DNA of 64,000 nucleotides from Neotamlana sargassicola (GTDB taxonomy: Bacteria > Bacteroidota > Bacteroidia > Flavobacteriales > Flavobacteriaceae), in contig NZ_JAJAPX010000001.1 in the NCBI RefSeq assembly GCF_020523965.1, positions 682,001 through 746,000 on the forward strand. Reading direction: 5' to 3'. The notes beneath the pieces are model-generated. The model worked only from the letters and a program-made list of their open reading frames with translations, was not told where the DNA came from and made no database searches. Made by a program: the position numbers and the translations under genes. Shown in pieces: positions 3,730-33,706 of the stretch. The stretch's first letter is position 1. The number at the start of each line of letters is the position of its first letter.

Positions 3730-5784
3730 ATGAAATACCCACATACAGAAATTAAAAATATTACCGACACCTATTTTGGAGTTGAAGTTGAAGACCCATA
3801 CAGGTGGTTAGAAAATGATGTTAGCGCAGAAACAAAAGCTTGGGTTAAAGCTCAAAACGTAGTTACCAACTCATATTTAAATCAAATTCCGTATAAAAAT
3901 CAAATAAAAAAACGTTTAGAAACCCTTTGGAACTACGAAAAAATAAGCGCTCCGTTTAAAGAAGGCAATTACATATACTATTCTAAAAATAATGGTTTGC
4001 AAAACCAAGATGTTATTTATAGAACACTTGTTAATAGTGATAAAAGTGAAGTTTTTCTAGATCTAAATACTTTTTCTGGTGATGGAACCGTCTCTTTAGG
4101 AGCATTAAGTTTTTCCAAAAGTGGCAGCTATTTGGCATATACCGTTTCAATTGGCGGAAGCGATTGGCGTAAAGTTTACATAATGGATGTCGCCACTAAA
4201 ACCATTGTTGAAGACGCCTTGGTTAATGTAAAATTTTCACAACTGTCCTGGTTTAAAGACGAAGGCTTTTATTACTCAAGCTACCAAAAACCCGATGGCA
4301 GCGAACTTTCTGCAAAAACCGACCAGCATTTAGTGTTTTACCATAAATTAAATACATCACAACTAAACGACACACTAATTTATGGCGGAAAACCAGAAGA
4401 AAAACACCGCTACATTTATGCTAACGTTACAGAAGATAATCGATTTTTAGTATTAACACCAAGAGTTTCAACCTCGGGAAACAAGCTCCTTATTAAAAAT
4501 TTAACCGATGCTAACAGCACGTTTAAAACCATTTTAAATCATAGCGATTCCGATACGTACGTGCTCGAAAATAAAGCGGATAACCTCTTTTTGGTAACCA
4601 ATTTAAATGCACCAAATAAAAAAATAGTTTCGGTTAATTTTAATAACCCAGAACCTAAAAACTGGACAGATATTATACCAGAAACAAATCAAGTTTTAAC
4701 CATTGCTAAAAGTGGTGGGTTTTTGTTTGCTCATTATATGGTCGATGCCATTTCTAACATTAAACAATACAAATTTAATGGTGAGTTTGTTCGGGATATA
4801 AACTTACCTGGTTTAGGCTCTGCACATGGTTTTAGTAGTAAAAAAGATGAAAGTACCTGTTATTTTTCATTTTCAAATTATTACACACCAACAAGCATTT
4901 ATAAACTTAATACAGATACAGGAGCATATAAATTATATTGGCAACCTGCAGTCCATTTTAACACTGAAAATTACACTAGTAAACAAGATTTTTACACCTC
5001 GAAAGATGGAACTAAAATTCCCATAATTATCACCCATAAAAAAGGCATTAAGCTTAATAGCAAAAACCCAACAATTTTATATGGCTATGGTGGTTTTAAT
5101 ATTAGTTTAACTCCCAGTTTTAGTATTGCAAATGCCGTATGGTTAGAATTAGGTGGTATTTTGGCTGTTCCTAATATTCGAGGAGGAGGAGAATACGGTA
5201 AAGCTTGGCACGATGCAGGTACAAAAATGCAAAAACAAAATGTGTTCGATGATTTTATCGCTGCCGCGGAATACTTAATAGCTAACCAATATACTTCTTC
5301 AGAATATTTAGCCTTACGCGGTGGTTCTAACGGTGGTTTATTGGTTGGCGCAGTAATGACACAACGCCCAAATTTAGCAAAAGTAGTATTACCCGCTGTT
5401 GGCGTTTTAGATATGCTACGCTACCACACCTTTACTGCTGGTGCCGGTTGGGCTTATGATTATGGAACAGCAGAAGATAGTAAAGATATGTTCCAGTATT
5501 TAAAAAACTACTCGCCAGTCCACAACGTAAAACAAACCAAATATCCCGCGACTTTAATAACAACTGCCGATCATGATGATAGAGTTGTACCTGCGCACAG
5601 TTTTAAATTTGCAGCAGAACTGCAAAATAAGCATCAAGGTAAAAACCCCGTTTTAATTCGTATAGAAACCAATGCAGGCCACGGTGCTGGTACACCTGTA
5701 AGTAAAACTATTGAACAATATGCCGATGTTTTTGCATTTACGCTCTTTAACATGAACGTTAAAACTTTAAATCCCAAAAATTAA
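3730..5784 (+). CDS. Prolyl oligopeptidase family serine peptidase (S9A)
   Basis: 684 residues. The N-terminus MKYPHTEIKN...YFGVEVEDPYRWLEN is the conserved start of prolyl oligopeptidases. The middle forms the propeller domain, and the C-terminal alpha/beta hydrolase domain carries the triad: Ser-533 in GGSNGG, Asp-616 in DHDDRV and His-651 in GHGAG. Also conserved are 'YGYGGFNISLTPSF' and 'PNIRGGGEYGKAWH'. Enzymes of this family cut short peptides after proline. No signal peptide or lipobox is present, so this copy looks cytoplasmic, whereas many flavobacterial S9 peptidases are exported. It stands alone between two terminators. Confidence 0.93.
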   Translation: MKYPHTEIKNITDTYFGVEVEDPYRWLENDVSAETKAWVKAQNVVTNSYLNQIPYKNQIKKRLETLWNYEKISAPFKEGNYIYYSKNNGLQNQDVIYRTLVNSDKSEVFLDLNTFSGDGTVSLGALSFSKSGSYLAYTVSIGGSDWRKVYIMDVATKTIVEDALVNVKFSQLSWFKDEGFYYSSYQKPDGSELSAKTDQHLVFYHKLNTSQLNDTLIYGGKPEEKHRYIYANVTEDNRFLVLTPRVSTSGNKLLIKNLTDANSTFKTILNHSDSDTYVLENKADNLFLVTNLNAPNKKIVSVNFNNPEPKNWTDIIPETNQVLTIAKSGGFLFAHYMVDAISNIKQYKFNGEFVRDINLPGLGSAHGFSSKKDESTCYFSFSNYYTPTSIYKLNTDTGAYKLYWQPAVHFNTENYTSKQDFYTSKDGTKIPIIITHKKGIKLNSKNPTILYGYGGFNISLTPSFSIANAVWLELGGILAVPNIRGGGEYGKAWHDAGTKMQKQNVFDDFIAAAEYLIANQYTSSEYLALRGGSNGGLLVGAVMTQRPNLAKVVLPAVGVLDMLRYHTFTAGAGWAYDYGTAEDSKDMFQYLKNYSPVHNVKQTKYPATLITTADHDDRVVPAHSFKFAAELQNKHQGKNPVLIRIETNAGHGAGTPVSKTIEQYADVFAFTLFNMNVKTLNPKN

Positions 5785-5837
5785 ATTTATTTCTATATCG
5801 CTTTTAATTTAGAACGGAATTAATTCTATTTTTCAAA

Positions 5838-5868
5838 CCGCTCGAAATATTTTGAGCGCTTTTTTTAT
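5838..5868 (+). terminator. Terminator after the prolyl oligopeptidase gene
   Basis: CGCTC (5839-5843) pairs with GAGCG (5854-5858) around an AT-rich inner part (GAAATATTTT) that can extend the stem, followed by a run of seven T residues. The promoter of the next gene begins three bases further on. Confidence 0.65.
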
Positions 5869-6825: not shown

Positions 6826-7284
6826 TTAAATAACTTCAATAATCTTAAACTTCATTTCTCTAAAAACCACTTTATCACCAACCGATTTTCCTAACAGCAA
6901 TTGACCAATTGGTGTACTAGCAGAAATAGCGTAAAATATTCCACTTTCAACTTTAAGCTCACCTGCACTAATACTAATAAAATAGTTAGATTTTGTTGTA
7001 AATACCACACTACCTAAACCAACATTTTTAGAAAAAGATTCTGGATTAATTTTAGAAAGAACTTGTTTAGTTTTTTCAATTTCTGCTAATTGATGCCCTG
7101 CTTTTTCACGCTCAAGTTGCACCATAGCTCTTCCGGTTTCATGCTTATCGCCTGCACTACTTTTGGTTTCACTTTGTAAGCTTTGTTTTAAGTCGTTTAT
7201 AACTGCTAAAACACTTTTTAATCGTGTTTCTAAACTAGCTTTGCAAAGCTCCAGCAATTGTGCTTTAATTTTTAAGTTTTCCAT
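6826..7284 (-). CDS. GreA/GreB-like C-terminal domain protein
   Basis: 152 residues. The N-terminal half is helical and charged, with the conserved block SSAGDKHETGRAMVQLE near residues 42-58; the C-terminal half (VGLGSVVFTTKSNYFISIS...AISASTPIGQLLLGKSVGD) resembles the FKBP-like C-terminal domain of Gre transcript-cleavage factors. A role at RNA polymerase is therefore possible but unproven. Relatives are often mislabelled 3-oxoacyl-ACP synthase, for which there is no support in the sequence. The gene overlaps the end of mtgA by 20 bases on the same strand, so the two are probably co-translated. Confidence 0.65.
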   Translation of the reverse strand: MENLKIKAQLLELCKASLETRLKSVLAVINDLKQSLQSETKSSAGDKHETGRAMVQLEREKAGHQLAEIEKTKQVLSKINPESFSKNVGLGSVVFTTKSNYFISISAGELKVESGIFYAISASTPIGQLLLGKSVGDKVVFREMKFKIIEVI

Positions 7285-7966
7285 GCTCTTTTTTTGGGAA
7301 ATTTAACGGCCCGTAAAATCCCATTTGCTTAATAATCCACTTTTTTCTGCCCGATATATAATTTGTTGCTGGTTGCGCTTTGTACTGCCTTGGGTTTGGT
7401 AATATAGCTGCAATTGCGGCTGCTTGACTTACGGTTAAATGTTTTGCTGATGTACCAAACCAATATTTTGATGCCGCCTCTGCTCCGTAAACCCCATTTC
7501 CCATTTCAATGCTATTTAAATACACTTCCAAAATGCGTTGTTTGTTCCAAAATCTTTCAATTAAAAAGGTAAAATACATTTCTAAACCTTTACGCAACCA
7601 ACTTCTGTTTGGCCATAAAAACACATTTTTTGCGGTTTGCTGGCTAATGGTACTTGCGCCTTTTATGCGTTTTGCTGTTTTATTGTTTTGGTACGCTTTC
7701 TCGATAGCATCTAAATCAAAGCCATTATGGCTTAAAAACTTTTGGTCTTCGCTACAAATTACGGCTTTTTGTAAGTGAATAGAAATATCATTAATATTTA
7801 CCCATTTATGCTGAAACTGTGAAGTTGATTGTGTTTTTTCAAAATAGCGAATTGCCATTAATGGCGTATAATACACAGGAGTATAACGATACATTACAAC
7901 CCATAAAATTGATATAATAACAAGCCAAAAACAACTTTTTAGTATAAAACGAAATAGTTTTTTCAT
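7265..7966 (-). CDS. mtgA: Monofunctional biosynthetic peptidoglycan transglycosylase
   Basis: 233 residues, the usual length for MtgA. One N-terminal membrane helix (about residues 8-27) anchors a GT51 domain facing the periplasm. The catalytic motif is CSEDQKFLSHNGFD with Glu-73, followed by the family motifs KGASTISQQTAKN, RKGLEMYFTFLIE and the YLNSIEMGNGVYGAEAAS block. There is no transpeptidase domain. It polymerises lipid II into glycan strands. The downstream Gre-like gene overlaps its 3' end. Confidence 0.95.
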   Translation of the reverse strand: MKKLFRFILKSCFWLVIISILWVVMYRYTPVYYTPLMAIRYFEKTQSTSQFQHKWVNINDISIHLQKAVICSEDQKFLSHNGFDLDAIEKAYQNNKTAKRIKGASTISQQTAKNVFLWPNRSWLRKGLEMYFTFLIERFWNKQRILEVYLNSIEMGNGVYGAEAASKYWFGTSAKHLTVSQAAAIAAILPNPRQYKAQPATNYISGRKKWIIKQMGFYGPLNFPKKEHGKLKN

Positions 7967-8039
7967 TTAAAAAATTAAGGACATTTTATATACCATTTAA
8001 TAAGCTGTAAAGATACTTATTTTAACAGGACGTTGCTTT

Positions 8040-8135
8040 GTGTTAAGGATAGAAACGGCATCCTTTTTTTGAGGCACGAATAAAAAAGATATAGTGGATA
8101 GCCTGACTTTTGCCCATAAAAGGCAAAAGTAACAC
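8040..8135 (+). repeat. Structured intergenic element, copy A
   Basis: A closing stem GTGTTA (8040-8045) with TAACAC (8130-8135) encloses the conserved string AAGGAT-A-GAA, a T-tract/A-tract hairpin (about 8061-8090) and a second perfect 9-bp hairpin (8106-8114 with 8122-8130). Copy B at 32013-32093 shares the layout and the strings GGAT-GA and GA-AGCC-G-C but has GCGCTA/TAGCGC as its closing stem. Elements of this general look are common in Bacteroidota intergenic regions. Function is unknown to me; here it lies antisense to both neighbours. Confidence 0.5.
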
Positions 8136-8142
8136 CATAAAA

Positions 8143-8169
8143 AAACTCCGAAAATTAATTCCGGAGTTT
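8143..8169 (-). terminator. Terminator after accC
   Basis: On the minus strand AAACTCCG pairs with CGGAGTTT across a 10-12 base AT loop, followed by TTTTT. It lies eight bases past the accC stop. Confidence 0.75.
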
Positions 8170-8177
8170 CTGTTTAT

Positions 8178-9530
8178 TTATTCTTCAACTTTTTTTTCCA
8201 TTACAAAGTCTTCCATGAATTTTGTGGTATAATTACCAGCAACATAATCTGGATGATCCATTAATTGCCTGTGGAATGGTATCGTTGTTTTTATGCCTTC
8301 TATTACAAACTCGTCTAAGGCGCGTTTCATTTTATTTATTGCTTCTTCTCTTGTTTGCGCTGTTGTAATTAGCTTTGCAATCATAGAGTCGTAGTTTGGT
8401 GGAATGGCGTAACCCGCATAAACGTGCGTATCTAAACGTACACCATGACCTCCTGGAGCGTGTAATGTTGTTATAACTCCTGGTGATGGTCTAAAATCAT
8501 TATACGGATCTTCTGCATTAATACGACATTCTATAGAGTGAAGCTTTGGTGTATAGTTTTTTCCTGAAATTGGCACACCTGCAGCTACAAGAATTTGTTC
8601 ACGAATTAAATCGAAATCTATAACTTGTTCTGTTATTGGATGCTCTACTTGAATACGTGTATTCATTTCCATGAAATAAAAATTACGGTGTTTATCTACC
8701 AAGAACTCAACTGTCCCTGCTCCTTCGTAATTAATATATTCTGCGGCACGTACACCTGCTTCTCCCATTTTTTGGCGTAACTCATCGGTCATGAAAGGCG
8801 ATGGTACTTCTTCTGTTAATTTTTGATGACGACGTTGTACCGAACAATCTCTTTCTGATAAATGGCATGCTTTACCACGAGAATCTCCAACAACTTGTAT
8901 TTCGATATGGCGAGGCTCTTCAATAAGCTTTTCCATATACATATCGTCGTTACCAAAGGCAGCTTTACTTTCTTGTCGTGCAGAATCCCAAGCAGCTTTT
9001 AAATCTTCTGGTTTCCATACAGCTCGCATACCTTTACCTCCACCACCGGCAGAAGCTTTTAACATAACTGGGTAACCTGTTTCAACTGCTATTTTTTCAC
9101 ACTCTTCAAAAGTTGTTATAACACCGTCGCTACCTGGTACACATGGTACTCCTGCAGCTTTCATGGTAGCTTTAGCGTTAGCTTTATCTCCCATTTTATC
9201 AATCATCTCTGGAGATGCACCAATAAATTTTATACCGTGTTCTTCACAAATTTTTGAAAATTTCGCGTTTTCTGATAAGAATCCGTATCCTGGATGAATG
9301 GCATCGGCGTTTGTAATTTCGGCTGCAGCAATAATGTTAGACATTTTTAAGTAAGACTCGCTACTTGGTGCTGGCCCTATACATACGGCTTCGTCGGCAA
9401 ATTTTACATGTAAGCTTTCTTCATCTACTTTAGAATAAACCGCAACGGTTTTTATTCCCATTTCCTTACAAGTACGTATAACACGTAGTGCTATTTCACC
9501 TCTGTTTGCTATTAATATTTTTTTAAACAT
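8178..9530 (-). CDS. accC: Acetyl-CoA carboxylase, biotin carboxylase subunit
   Basis: 450 residues, full length for AccC. The N-terminal biotin-carboxylase fold begins [20 protein letters not shown]; the ATP-grasp glycine-rich loop GGGGKG is at 162-167; the metal and active-site region reads [14 protein letters not shown]; and the C-terminal domain has the usual RINAEDP and [12 protein letters not shown] motifs. It carboxylates the biotin on AccB in the first step of fatty acid synthesis. It is the last gene of fabH-accB-accC. The carboxyltransferase genes are not in the window. Confidence 0.97.
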
Positions 9531-14499: not shown

Positions 14500-14573
14500 T
14501 GGTCCCACCTGGGCTCGAACCAGGGACTTTCTGATTATGAGTCAGATACTCTAACCAACTGAGTTATAGGACC
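14500..14573 (-). tRNA. tRNA with CAU anticodon (tRNA-Met, or tRNA-Ile2)
   Basis: Folds as a cloverleaf on the minus strand: acceptor GGTCCTA/TGGGACC with one G-T pair, D-stem ACTC/GAGT with loop AGTTGGTTA, anticodon stem TCTGA/TCAGA with loop CTCATAA (anticodon at 14537-14539), variable AAGTC, T-stem CCTGG/CCAGG with loop TTCGAGC, and discriminator A. The 3' CCA is not encoded. A CAU anticodon is shared by elongator Met and by Ile2, whose C34 is modified to lysidine; the sequence does not decide. The initiator is less likely because the acceptor starts with a G-C pair. Confidence 0.92.
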
Positions 14574-31228: not shown

Positions 31229-31972
31229 TTGAAAATTCCTTTTGAACCCACTGTTTTTGGCTTTAATTTAAATGTTCATTTGATTTTAGAATATTTAGCA
31301 TTTTTTTTAGCATTTAGGTTTTATCTGTTTTTACGTAAAAAACAAATTGATGCTATTAACTCGAATAACAGACTTTCTATAATTCTAGGCGCCACAATTG
31401 GTGCTTTAATTGGTTCTAGAGTTATAGGTTTTCTGGAAAACCCTGTTTTTGACTTTACTAAAGAAAATTTAATTAACCTTATAAATACAAAAACCATTAT
31501 GGGGGGTTTGTTTGGTGGTTTACTTGGTGTAGAATTGGCTAAAAAAATTATTGGCGAAACTAAATCGTCTGGCGATTTGTTTACATTTCCTATTATGTTA
31601 GGCATTTTTATTGGGCGTATTGGTTGTTTTTTATCGGGTGTAAACGAGTTTACCTATGGTAGAAAAACGTCTTTTTTTATGGGCATGGATTTAGGAGATG
31701 GTTTACTTAGGCACCCTACATCGTTGTACGAATTACTGTTTTTAATTGTTTTATTTTGTGGTTTATTTTATTTTAAAAACAAATACAAACTTAAAAATGG
31801 CGACTTGTTTAAATGGTTTATGATTTTTTACTTTGGTTTTAGGTTTTTTATTGAGTTTTTAAAACCTAACTTATTTTTGGTTTTTGGCCTAAGTACAATT
31901 CAATTATTATGTGTAGCTTGCTGGTTGTATTATTTTAAATACAAACCCTGTTTAAATTTTACAAAAAAATAA
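31229..31972 (+). CDS. Lgt-like membrane protein lacking several Lgt catalytic residues (TTG start)
   Basis: 247 residues from a TTG, the only start before residue 91; it gives MKIPFEPTVFGFN. About seven membrane helices. The Lgt fold is recognisable: MGGLFGGLLG (91-100) lies where Lgt has H-G-G, GRIGCF (129-134) where Lgt has G-R-x-G-N-F, and RHPTSLYE (161-168) matches the RHP-Q-LYE motif. Arg-130 and Glu-168 are kept, but the Lgt histidine is Met-91 and the asparagine is Cys-133. True Lgt transfers diacylglyceryl from phosphatidylglycerol to prolipoproteins; this paralogue probably does something else with lipids. It precedes a Tes-like radical SAM gene, and no terminator separates them. 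Confidence 0.75.
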   Translation: MKIPFEPTVFGFNLNVHLILEYLAFFLAFRFYLFLRKKQIDAINSNNRLSIILGATIGALIGSRVIGFLENPVFDFTKENLINLINTKTIMGGLFGGLLGVELAKKIIGETKSSGDLFTFPIMLGIFIGRIGCFLSGVNEFTYGRKTSFFMGMDLGDGLLRHPTSLYELLFLIVLFCGLFYFKNKYKLKNGDLFKWFMIFYFGFRFFIEFLKPNLFLVFGLSTIQLLCVACWLYYFKYKPCLNFTKK

Positions 31973-32012
31973 TACCGTAAATAGCCTTTTACAATTATTT
32001 ACAAACTTGCTC

Positions 32013-32093
32013 GCGCTAGGGATTGAGGCATTTGTTGAAGCTCCTCGACGCAGGAGAGAGCGACTGCCGAAAGCCCGGCCCTTGTGGTAGCGC
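32013..32093 (+). repeat. Structured intergenic element, copy B
   Basis: GC-rich island in an AT-rich gap. Closing stem GCGCTA (32013-32018) with TAGCGC (32088-32093); inner GGCA (32027-32030) with TGCC (32065-32068); hairpin CTCCT (32041-32045) with AGGAG (32052-32056). Conserved strings GGAT-GA after the first arm and GA-AGCC-G-C before the last arm are shared with copy A at 8040-8135. It ends 18 bases before the radical SAM start codon, so it may act on that gene as a leader or be a mobile or neutral element. Confidence 0.55.
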
Positions 32094-32111
32094 CCAAATA
32101 AAAAAATTAAT

Positions 32112-33506
32112 ATGCCCAATAGAAAATATACGTACTACGATTATACTTTAAGCCTTTGCCCCGAATGTTTAACACGTGTTGATGCAAAAATTGTATTTGA
32201 AAACGATAAGGTTTATATGCTTAAGCGTTGCAAAGAACATGGTAACTCTAAAGTATTAATTGCCGATGATATTGCGTATTATAAAAACATAAGAAACTAC
32301 AATAAACCTAGCGAAACGCCTTATAAATTTAATACAAAAACAGATTATGGGTGTCCTTACGATTGTGGTTTGTGTCCAGACCACGAGCAACATTCTTGCT
32401 TAACGGTTATTGAGGTTACAGACCGTTGCAATTTAACTTGCCCTACGTGTTATGCTGGGTCTTCGCCTACTTATGGCAGGCACAGAACTTTGGCCGAAGT
32501 TAAAAAAATGCTAGATACCATTGTGGCGAATGAAAAGGAGCCCGATGTGGTACAAATTTCGGGTGGAGAACCTACAATACACCCGCAGTTTTGGGACATT
32601 TTAGATTATGCAAAATCACTACCTATTAGGCATTTAATGCTTAACACCAACGGTATAAAAATTGCTAAAGATTTGGAGTTTGCTAAACGTTTAAAAACGT
32701 ATACGCCAGATTTTGAGATTTATTTACAATTCGATTCCTTTAAAGATTCGGTATTGCAAGAACTAAGAGGTGCAAATTTAAGCGATATTAGAAAACAGGC
32801 TTTAGATAACTTAAACGCCTTAAACCTCTCTACAACACTGGTTGTTACTCTTCAAAAAGGGTTAAATGATAACGAAATTGGTGAAATTATAGATTATGCA
32901 TTGCAACAAAAATGTGTGCGCGGGGTTACGTTTCAGCCCACACAAATTGCCGGTAGATTAGAAAATTTTAACCCAGAAACAGACCGATTAACTTTAACCG
33001 AAGTACGAAGAAAAATTTTAGAACAAACCTCTATTTTTAATCCAGACGATTTGTTGCCCGTGCCTTGTAACCCCGATGCTTTAGTTATGGGTTATGCACT
33101 AAAATTGGAAGACGAGGTGTTTCCGTTAACGCGATATATTAACCCAAACGATTTATTAGATAATAGTAAAAACACCATTATTTACGAGCAAGATGAGCAA
33201 TTACAAGGTAAAATGATTGAGTTGTTTAGCACTGGTAACTCTGTTGAAGTTGCCGAAGAAAACCTAAAAAGTATTATGTGCTGTTTGCCAAATATTGATG
33301 CACCAAACCTAGGTTACGATAATTTATTTCGTATTATAATAATGCAATTTATTGATGCTTATAATTTTGATGTACGTGCTATAAAAAAATCGTGTGTGCA
33401 TATTGTTGATAAAGACAACAAAATTATTCCTTTTGAAACCATGAATCTCTTTTATCGCGACGATAAAAAACAACGTTTAGAAGAACTAAGAAAAACCACA
33501 TTATGA
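32112..33506 (+). CDS. Tes-like radical SAM protein (possible lipid-tail modifying enzyme)
   Basis: 464 residues. N-terminal Cys motif LCPEC (Cys-16, Cys-19) with Cys-40 in CKEHG; then GCPYDCGLCPDH (81, 85, 88) with Cys-96; then the radical SAM cluster CNLTCPTC (Cys-106, 110, 113); SAM-binding VQISGGEPTIHP; and a C-terminal block PCNPDALVMGYAL, AYNFDVRAIKKSCVHIV, IIPFETMN. This order of clusters is that of archaeal tetraether synthase (Tes) and its bacterial homologues, which join lipid tails carbon-to-carbon. Some C-terminal cysteines of that family appear replaced (Ser in KKSCVH, Glu in PFETMN). Lipid coupling here is inference. It overlaps the next gene by four bases (ATGA). Confidence 0.8.
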   Translation: MPNRKYTYYDYTLSLCPECLTRVDAKIVFENDKVYMLKRCKEHGNSKVLIADDIAYYKNIRNYNKPSETPYKFNTKTDYGCPYDCGLCPDHEQHSCLTVIEVTDRCNLTCPTCYAGSSPTYGRHRTLAEVKKMLDTIVANEKEPDVVQISGGEPTIHPQFWDILDYAKSLPIRHLMLNTNGIKIAKDLEFAKRLKTYTPDFEIYLQFDSFKDSVLQELRGANLSDIRKQALDNLNALNLSTTLVVTLQKGLNDNEIGEIIDYALQQKCVRGVTFQPTQIAGRLENFNPETDRLTLTEVRRKILEQTSIFNPDDLLPVPCNPDALVMGYALKLEDEVFPLTRYINPNDLLDNSKNTIIYEQDEQLQGKMIELFSTGNSVEVAEENLKSIMCCLPNIDAPNLGYDNLFRIIIMQFIDAYNFDVRAIKKSCVHIVDKDNKIIPFETMNLFYRDDKKQRLEELRKTTL

Positions 33507-33706
33507 TGTATTTACTAAGCCCAAACATGGATTTAACCGGTATTTTTATAATAATACTACTAATTATTTCTGTACCTGCTATTATATTGAGTATAATTGG
33601 TTTATTTTTATTTAAAAAGAAAAGAAAGACAGCTAAAATTTTATTTATTATTTCTGTTGTTTACCTTATCGTTAGTTTAGGAGTTTGTGGTGGTGTGATA
33701 TCTTAA
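33503..33706 (+). CDS. Small two-helix membrane protein coupled to the radical SAM gene
   Basis: 67 residues. The start ATG overlaps the radical SAM stop in ATGA, a sign of translational coupling. Two hydrophobic helices (about residues 12-34 and 43-64) flank a basic loop FKKKRKTAK, so the loop is expected in the cytoplasm. No family recognised. Coupling to the radical SAM gene and the adjacent Lgt-like membrane protein suggests a membrane partner of that enzyme, which is inference. It is followed convergently by the TonB-plug gene 15 bases later. Confidence 0.7.
   Translation: MMYLLSPNMDLTGIFIIILLIISVPAIILSIIGLFLFKKKRKTAKILFIISVVYLIVSLGVCGGVIS

Follow-up and report, generated by a model that had tools for sequence, protein, structure and literature searches.

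A conserved gene module joining an Lgt paralogue and a Tes-like radical SAM enzyme to small cysteine-ended membrane proteins: a candidate protein-lipidation system in Flavobacteriaceae

In Neotamlana sargassicola, three consecutive plus-strand genes within a 64-kb stretch of the genome (locus G000:C10:682001-746000, here called the window) encode an Lgt-like membrane enzyme, a radical S-adenosylmethionine (SAM) enzyme resembling the archaeal tetraether synthase Tes, and a small two-helix membrane protein with a conserved C-terminal cysteine. Our preferred reading, to which we give a probability of roughly 0.45, is that these genes form a protein-lipidation module in which the Lgt paralogue would lipidate the C-terminal Cys and the Tes-like enzyme would remodel or couple lipid tails. 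The module and its co-inheritance, the conserved Cys, the retained phosphatidylglycerol-binding arginines and the retained Tes metal sites are direct observations. The enzymes belong to known superfamilies. Their combination into one module is, within the literature searched, a type of system not described before: no paper joining an Lgt-like protein, a Tes-like protein and a small protein was found in the open-licence PubMed Central literature. Homologues of Tes were recognised in bacteria in 2022, to our knowledge with no substrate assigned to them so far, and Lgt paralogues whose active site is altered are widespread and still lack an explanation. The module offers both enzyme types one concrete small candidate substrate, namely the conserved Cys that ends the neighbouring two-helix protein.

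Gene layout and co-inheritance of the module

The Lgt-like gene (31229-31972, + strand; 247 amino acids, TTG start; assigned by PF01790 and the 5azb fold) is followed by the radical SAM gene (32112-33506, + strand; 464 amino acids; assigned by sequence and fold matches to Tes) and by the gene for the 67-amino acid two-helix protein, the proposed substrate (33503-33706, + strand). Reading of the open reading frames (ORFs) showed that the last two genes share an ATGA overlap, in agreement with the initial annotation of this DNA, which had described three such genes in a row. The Lgt-like and radical SAM genes also often overlap in close relatives, for example at 7268-8011 and 8001-9395 of locus L033.

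Genome contigs were scanned for close relatives, and 80 loci were kept from 286 relatives whose radical SAM proteins are 88-92% identical. Both enzyme genes were present in every one of the 80 fetched loci, with the Lgt-like gene in most cases adjoining the radical SAM gene or overlapping it and, in L057, 5.5 kb away from it. Among 299 Flavobacteriaceae genomes, 38 gave radical SAM matches, 37 of them full and one a fragment with a stop (G072), and the same 37 genomes gave Lgt-like matches at E ≤ 3.1e-84, the next match lying at 2.8e-10. The hypergeometric p for this co-occurrence was 3.5e-48, a value that is overstated since the genomes are related. By sequence, the small protein was detected in 38 of the 299 genomes (36 of the 37, with G003 and G152), and the 37th genome, G113, encodes a diverged 72-amino acid protein ending IGFSMC-FGLLAGF. 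A small protein with a C-terminal Cys is present in all 37 genomes (30/30 in L003-L032, and in G032, G113, G222, G018, G177, G236 and G186). The initial annotation had proposed a survey of gene neighbours across the family; the linkage of the three genes was seen in these genomes and loci alike, and is stronger than that annotation had said.

In a sample of 395 genomes of the phylum, 61 matched the radical SAM protein at E ≤ 1e-10, many through the generic radical SAM core, and 32 (the genome of the window included) matched at E ≤ 2.1e-53, these being from the window's family and ten others. A module-type Lgt-like gene was found in all 32, in 30 beside the radical SAM gene and in two (G330 and G559) unlinked to it. 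The search outside the phylum was made in plasmid records, where plasmids of Mycobacterium branderi and M. avium carry an Lgt-like gene, two small-protein genes and a radical SAM gene in a row. Nonomuraea gerenzanensis has an Lgt-like and a radical SAM gene together with a 368-amino acid Pro-rich protein that has the same two-helix C-terminal end, Persicobacter psychrovividus has all three genes, and the C-terminal Cys motif recurs in Mycobacterium, Nonomuraea and Persicobacter. Pairwise distances of the radical SAM and Lgt-like proteins were correlated (Mantel r 0.86, 0/5000 permutations, n = 22), and the Lgt-linked radical SAM proteins split from four others at 93/89. In the tree of Lgt proteins, the 22 module Lgt-like proteins from two phyla grouped together and were split from 18 others by a 100/99 branch, giving the separate clade that a phylogeny had been suggested to look for, although the long branches advise caution. 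A scan of viral contigs gave 104 pattern matches and no relative, and viral spread was rejected as a candidate.

More distant relatives are arranged in other ways. Among modules at 40% identity, L140-L142 include an ICMT-type and a DUF4395 gene, and in L142 the ICMT/PEMT-type methyltransferase and DUF4395 genes (4784-5377 and 5280-5858) stand between the radical SAM and Lgt-like genes; the ICMT-type gene scored 49.9 bits on PF04140 in L142 and was recognised by eye in L140 and L141. The protein encoded at 6864-8321 of L144 (G361) scored 493.8 bits on the Tes model, above its cut-off of 450, and that at 7107-8582 of L145 (G588) scored 441.9; no module-type Lgt-like gene was found in the genomes of these Tes-scoring proteins. 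On plasmids of Mycolicibacterium vanbaalenii (L173 5971-8339) and Halorarius (L175 4998-7161), a methyltransferase gene comes after a Tes/TrsS-like radical SAM gene, and the displayed stretch of neither plasmid has an annotated Lgt.

Small membrane proteins with a conserved C-terminal cysteine

Downstream of the radical SAM gene, one to four variable small ORFs stand in tandem, the first Cys-ended one beginning as ATGA in 34 of the 80 close-relative loci. A Cys-ended small ORF was found there within 480 nt in 80/80 close-relative loci and in 127 of 135 loci overall. Five of the other eight loci carry a Cys-ended ORF between the two enzyme genes, and in the remaining three the ORF failed the hydrophobicity filter (L146), the locus reaches the contig end (L155) or there is none (L152, from G330). 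The 135 loci yielded 175 distinct hydrophobic small ORFs, about a dozen genomes being sampled twice. A Cys near the C-terminal end was present in 167 of the 175 and was the sole Cys in 140 of these; it is preceded by Gly at position -2 in 160, by Leu or Phe at -3 in 155 and by Ile or Val at -1 in 126. In the window protein it is Cys-62 (33686-33688, + strand), within ...IVSLGVC-GGVIS at the end of helix 2. The typical end of these proteins is a predicted transmembrane helix preceded by Lys/Arg and closed mostly by [LF]GxC and a short tail. For comparison, 300 hydrophobic small ORFs were taken from the flanks; 78 of them (26%) have a Cys near the end, and 19 have [GSA]xC, two of the latter being extra family copies in L039.

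In an alignment of 155 close members, in which the invariance of the Cys is by construction, Gly at -2 (153), Tyr at -8 (150) and Ile at -13 (151) were prominent and most other columns varied. Divergent modules retain the Cys where little else aligns, as seen in 23 listed proteins that were picked for such an ending. The small ORFs are under purifying selection, since pN was lower than pS in 80 of 81 pairs, with a median pN/pS of 0.22. No curated small-protein family was matched above its cut-off, the best models being DUF4064 (25 bits, cut-off 32.1) and NF049893 (16.4 bits, cut-off 120). At 3099-4205 of L177, from Nonomuraea, the 368-amino acid protein combines a long Pro/Gly-rich N-terminal part with a Cys-ended two-helix domain at its C-terminal end, an architecture in which the two-helix domain may anchor other parts.

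The last Lys/Arg lies 16-21 residues upstream of the Cys in 164 of the 167 proteins, and Lys/Arg is absent downstream of it in 157. Given this placement and the positive-inside rule, the Cys is predicted to lie at the periplasmic end of the helix. Classical lipoproteins carry the lipobox [LVI][ASTVI][GAS]C after an N-terminal signal. No such N-terminal lipobox was found in the small protein, where the motif stands at the C-terminal end and the -1 residue is mostly Ile or Val, and identity as a canonical lipoprotein was rejected on these grounds. In 63 lipoprotein candidates from the flanks, the -1 residue is mostly Ser and the spacing from Lys/Arg to Cys is 11-16 residues (median 14), against 17 in the small proteins. 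One report places the Lgt active site at the periplasmic helix end and describes its chemistry as S-alkylation of a Cys there (PMC4728403). The initial annotation had treated the two-helix protein as a mere membrane partner; the invariant C-terminal Cys, the tandem copies and the lipoprotein-signal-like last helix make this unlikely and point to a likely substrate.

Residues of the two enzymes and the surrounding DNA

The Lgt-like protein scored 94.3 bits on PF01790 (gathering cut-off 24.9) and 47.4 bits on the Lgt equivalog model TIGR00544, below its cut-off of 118.9. A full Lgt with His103 and Asn146 is encoded elsewhere in the same genome (E 4.0e-56), and the Lgt-like protein is therefore a paralogue. 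Alignment of its AlphaFold2 model (predicted confidence, pLDDT, 75) with VIA-align 2 gave 5azb at Z 12.5 (root-mean-square deviation 5.0, 232 aligned residues), the next of 984 Foldseek candidates reaching 6.9; the modelled structure has the Lgt fold that the initial annotation had named. With plain Foldseek, the model found nothing at E ≤ 0.001. Met-91, Arg-130, Cys-133 and Glu-168, singled out in the initial annotation, are all in place, the first three (codons 31499-31501, 31616-31618 and 31625-31627, + strand) being the counterparts of E. coli His103, Arg143 and Asn146.

Residues were tabulated in 124 distinct relatives with E. coli numbering. Both arginines are retained (Arg143 in 124/124, Arg239 in 123/124 with one gap), Glu202, His196 and Gly154 are each present in all 124, and the Y235/E243 positions are also shared with E. 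coli Lgt. Asn146 is replaced by Cys in every sequence and Tyr26 by His in 119, and at position 103 we found Met (106), Val (12), Leu (2), Ala (2), Ile (1) and Thr (1). According to the portion of PMC13251419 available to us, E. coli Lgt requires Tyr26, His103, Arg143, Asn146, Gly154 and Arg239; Asn146Cys occurs in distant Lgt proteins, and Tyr26His with Asn146Cys in MSMEG_5408, so that two of the changes seen here were already known. The residues listed there at 103 are Tyr, Trp and Phe, with no aliphatic residue in that portion. The Lgt-like proteins of the Mycobacterium plasmids likewise have Tyr26His and Asn146Cys. An Lgt from another member of the Flavobacteriaceae (L187, G128) has Tyr at 103 and Cys at 146 and sits on a very long branch outside the module clade.

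The radical SAM protein scored 90.3 bits on the Radical_SAM model (cut-off 29.5). Its best NCBIfam model, matched at full length, was TrsS NF045646 (334.8 bits, cut-off 490), and it reached 294.6 bits on Tes NF045702 (cut-off 450); identity as a true Tes or as TrsS/TrsM was rejected, both scores being below the cut-offs. The best solved relative by sequence was GDGT-MAS/Tes, 7tol (E 1.5e-69), and the same structure was the top Foldseek match (E 2.3e-25, next family 8.1e-07) of a weak model with pLDDT 51. The model is poor because its 41 input sequences are 88-92% alike, and the case for Tes likeness is therefore one made from sequence. The structural comparison that the initial annotation had advised agrees with the Tes layout, and membership of the Tes family was not borne out. 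PADLOC pVip matches (48 and 46 bits) reflect the generic radical SAM core, and a defence role was rejected.

The motifs LCPEC/CKEHG, GCPYDCGLCPDH and CNLTCPTC, on which the Tes layout had been proposed, are all present. The available excerpt of PMC9433317 gives the ligands of the rubredoxin, N-cluster and radical SAM sites of Tes, with C73, C77, C80 and a His for the N-cluster; for the fourth, C-terminal cluster it gives the labile Met439 and names no Cys ligand. Counted over 126 core sequences, the rubredoxin-type site CX2C...CX2H (C16, C19, C40 and H43) is kept as in Tes, with the three Cys in 126/126 and H43 in 125, and so is the N-terminal cluster (C81 in 125; C85, C88 and H91 in 126). The ligands of the radical SAM cluster (C106, C110 and C113; codons 32427-32450, + strand) are kept in 125 or 126 sequences. 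Met-411, the counterpart of Met439, is present in 123, and the C-terminal Cys at 319, 390/391 and 428 in 126, 123 and 125, respectively; at the positions of Tes Cys438 and Cys470 the protein has other residues. By alignment, then, it retains the ligands of three Tes metal sites and, at the fourth, the labile Met. Actinomycetota-type radical SAM proteins, inspected by eye, have no N-cluster motif.

In the window, a dispersed repeat (32012-32098, no strand), recognised by genome-wide repeat comparison, is inserted between the two enzyme genes; it occurs at 16 genomic places, itself counted, with a best other copy 91% identical (query bases 13-99). It is probably not part of module function; neither it nor Cys-62 figured in the initial annotation. 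Scans for promoters and terminators gave nothing above the shuffled expectation. Elsewhere in the window are a Flavo-1 RNA (RF01705; 8038-8112, + strand, 52.1 bits) and an Rfam-predicted tRNA gene (14500-14573, - strand).

Proposed function, alternatives and known systems

In the mechanism that we propose, the small two-helix proteins would be the substrates. Their second helix, with a Lys/Arg-rich cytoplasmic start and an [LF]GxC periplasmic end, would be presented like an internal lipoprotein signal, and the C-terminal Cys would receive on its thiol a diacylglyceryl group, or a related glyceryl group, which the Lgt paralogue would take from phosphatidylglycerol. Because the -1 residue is mostly Ile or Val, signal peptidase II would probably not cut, and the helix would stay. 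At the cytosolic face, the Tes-like enzyme would abstract hydrogen from lipid tails, altering or coupling them before or after transfer, and the end product would be a small protein whose lipid anchor has been remodelled and may be macrocyclic or span the membrane. We consider the C-terminal Cys probably to be the modified residue, and the balance tips slightly towards a glycerolipid added by the Lgt paralogue; the chances are even that the radical SAM enzyme works on lipid tails, and it is rather doubtful that it joins them. Iso-C15 tails are abundant in Flavobacteriaceae. Zeng et al. (PMC8941075) point out that the ends of iso-branched bacterial tails resemble those of archaeal tails. The fullest form of the proposal, a glycerolipid placed on the C-terminal Cys by a dedicated Lgt paralogue and combined with Tes-type C-C tail coupling into a macrocyclic or membrane-spanning protein anchor, would be a bacterial counterpart of archaeal tetraether chemistry, and we regard it as unlikely. 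If the lipidation module is real, radical chemistry on lipid tails would join protein lipidation, and the lipobox would have a C-terminal counterpart.

Several observations weigh against this reading. His103, required by E. coli Lgt, is absent from all 124 Lgt-like sequences, none of which has His, Tyr, Trp or Phe at this position of HGGL, and transfer may therefore not be the reaction. In the 7tol alignment, Tyr459, Cys438 and Cys470 of Tes correspond to Ile, Ile and Glu. The C-terminal motif appears lipobox-like and not a lipobox, in view of its -1 residue and its longer Lys/Arg-to-Cys spacing. Eight of the 175 small ORFs have no C-terminal Cys, three of them being relatives of one type and some looking spurious or degenerate. 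G330 has both enzymes and no small protein near either, a profile search giving a broken, weak match (E 0.007). In G152 the locus has collapsed, so that 23 residues of the Lgt-like start adjoin 23 of the radical SAM end, and the small protein with its Cys is kept although the enzymes are lost. G003 (80% complete) speaks for the reading: the enzymes are also gone and the small protein is kept, its motif now being SSGFFYA without Cys. G072 has remnants of the radical SAM and small-protein genes. One enzyme loss with loss of the Cys and one without it are together no more than suggestive. The chemistry, lipid or acyl-chain coupling included, is a putative one read from the genes, and we know of no membrane-spanning lipid of Flavobacteriaceae.

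The loss of His103 across the family and the case of G330 would both suit a pathway in which the two enzymes make an unusual free lipid, for instance with ether or carbon linkages, and the small protein assists non-covalently, its Cys serving in a disulfide, as a metal ligand or as a transient lipid carrier. Tes and its bacterial homologues have also been linked to free membrane-spanning lipids in the parts available of PMC8941075 and PMC11868695. However, one to four tandem copies that vary except for the Cys and a nearby Gly, with a sole Cys in 140 of 167, fit a substrate better than a helper, and we judge the free-lipid pathway unlikely while still a serious contender. A ribosomally synthesized and post-translationally modified peptide (RiPP) would likewise present small ORFs that vary and occur in several copies next to a radical SAM gene, with the radical SAM enzyme cross-linking the precursor or forming thioethers at or near the Cys, the Lgt-like enzyme lipidating it and the short C-terminal tail giving a secreted lipopeptide. 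An Lgt-using RiPP-lipoprotein hybrid with an iron oxidase, from Chryseobacterium-type bacteria, is a precedent, going by the available text of PMC12636315. Yet the radical SAM relatives are Tes-layout lipid enzymes and not SPASM maturases, the tail past the Cys is short and poorly conserved, and no recurrent protease or exporter was found in 26 clustered loci, which makes such a product decidedly unlikely.

That the radical SAM protein is instead a TrsS-like methylase or another, methyltransferase-partnered enzyme, its link with the Lgt-like gene being regulatory or historical, would agree with the TrsS model scoring ahead of Tes (335 against 295 bits), with the methyltransferase genes adjoining the related plasmid copies and with the ICMT/PEMT-type gene inside the L142 module. 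We hold this to be improbable, given that the score stays under the cut-off of 490, that the window genes have no methyltransferase gene among or next to them and that co-occurrence with the Lgt-like gene is exact even where the two are unlinked. An explanation by chance neighbours or spurious ORFs would agree with the short, hydrophobic nature of the small ORFs and with the 26% of comparable background ORFs that also have a Cys near their end; co-occurrence in 37/37 genomes, purifying selection in 80/81 pairs and recurrence in two phyla stand against this, and co-occurrence and selection rule it out. The lipidation module remains our preferred reading. The proposal in the initial annotation is thereby supported in part: the fold, the layout and the linkage stand, Tes membership and the partner role do not, and neither outcome that it had named as fatal (a non-lipid structural match, or no conserved linkage) arose.

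Compared with known systems, the Lgt-like protein shares with E. coli Lgt (5azb) the fold over 232 residues and the Arg143, Arg239, Glu202, Gly154, His196 and Y235/E243 positions; unlike it, it falls below TIGR00544, has His103, Asn146 and Tyr26 replaced, forms a separate clade and has its own partner genes. With MSMEG_5408, the second mycobacterial Lgt, it has Tyr26His and Asn146Cys in common (PMC13251419), whereas distant Lgt proteins including MSMEG_5408 carry Tyr, Trp or Phe at 103 and are presumed to have low activity, and the accessible text of that article names no radical SAM or small-protein partner. The radical SAM enzyme resembles Tes/GDGT-MAS (MJ0619, 7tol) as its top sequence and Foldseek match, in the rubredoxin, N-cluster and radical SAM ligands and in the counterparts of Met439 and Cys456; it differs in its score (295 against 450 bits), in Tyr459 (dispensable in Tes), Cys438 and Cys470, and in its linkage to Lgt-like and small-protein genes. 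It resembles the TrsS (seleno)protein as the best, full-length NCBIfam model and is unlike it in scoring 335 against 490 bits, in an open frame that needs no selenocysteine codon and in the absence of an adjacent methyltransferase. The DybA RiPP-lipoprotein hybrid also combines a small peptide, a Cys lipidated by Lgt and a second modifying enzyme; in contrast to the module described here, it has a canonical lipobox at the N terminus, the Lgt proposed to act on it is the housekeeping one, and a multinuclear iron oxidase takes the place of the radical SAM protein as second enzyme, as far as the available part of PMC12636315 describes it.

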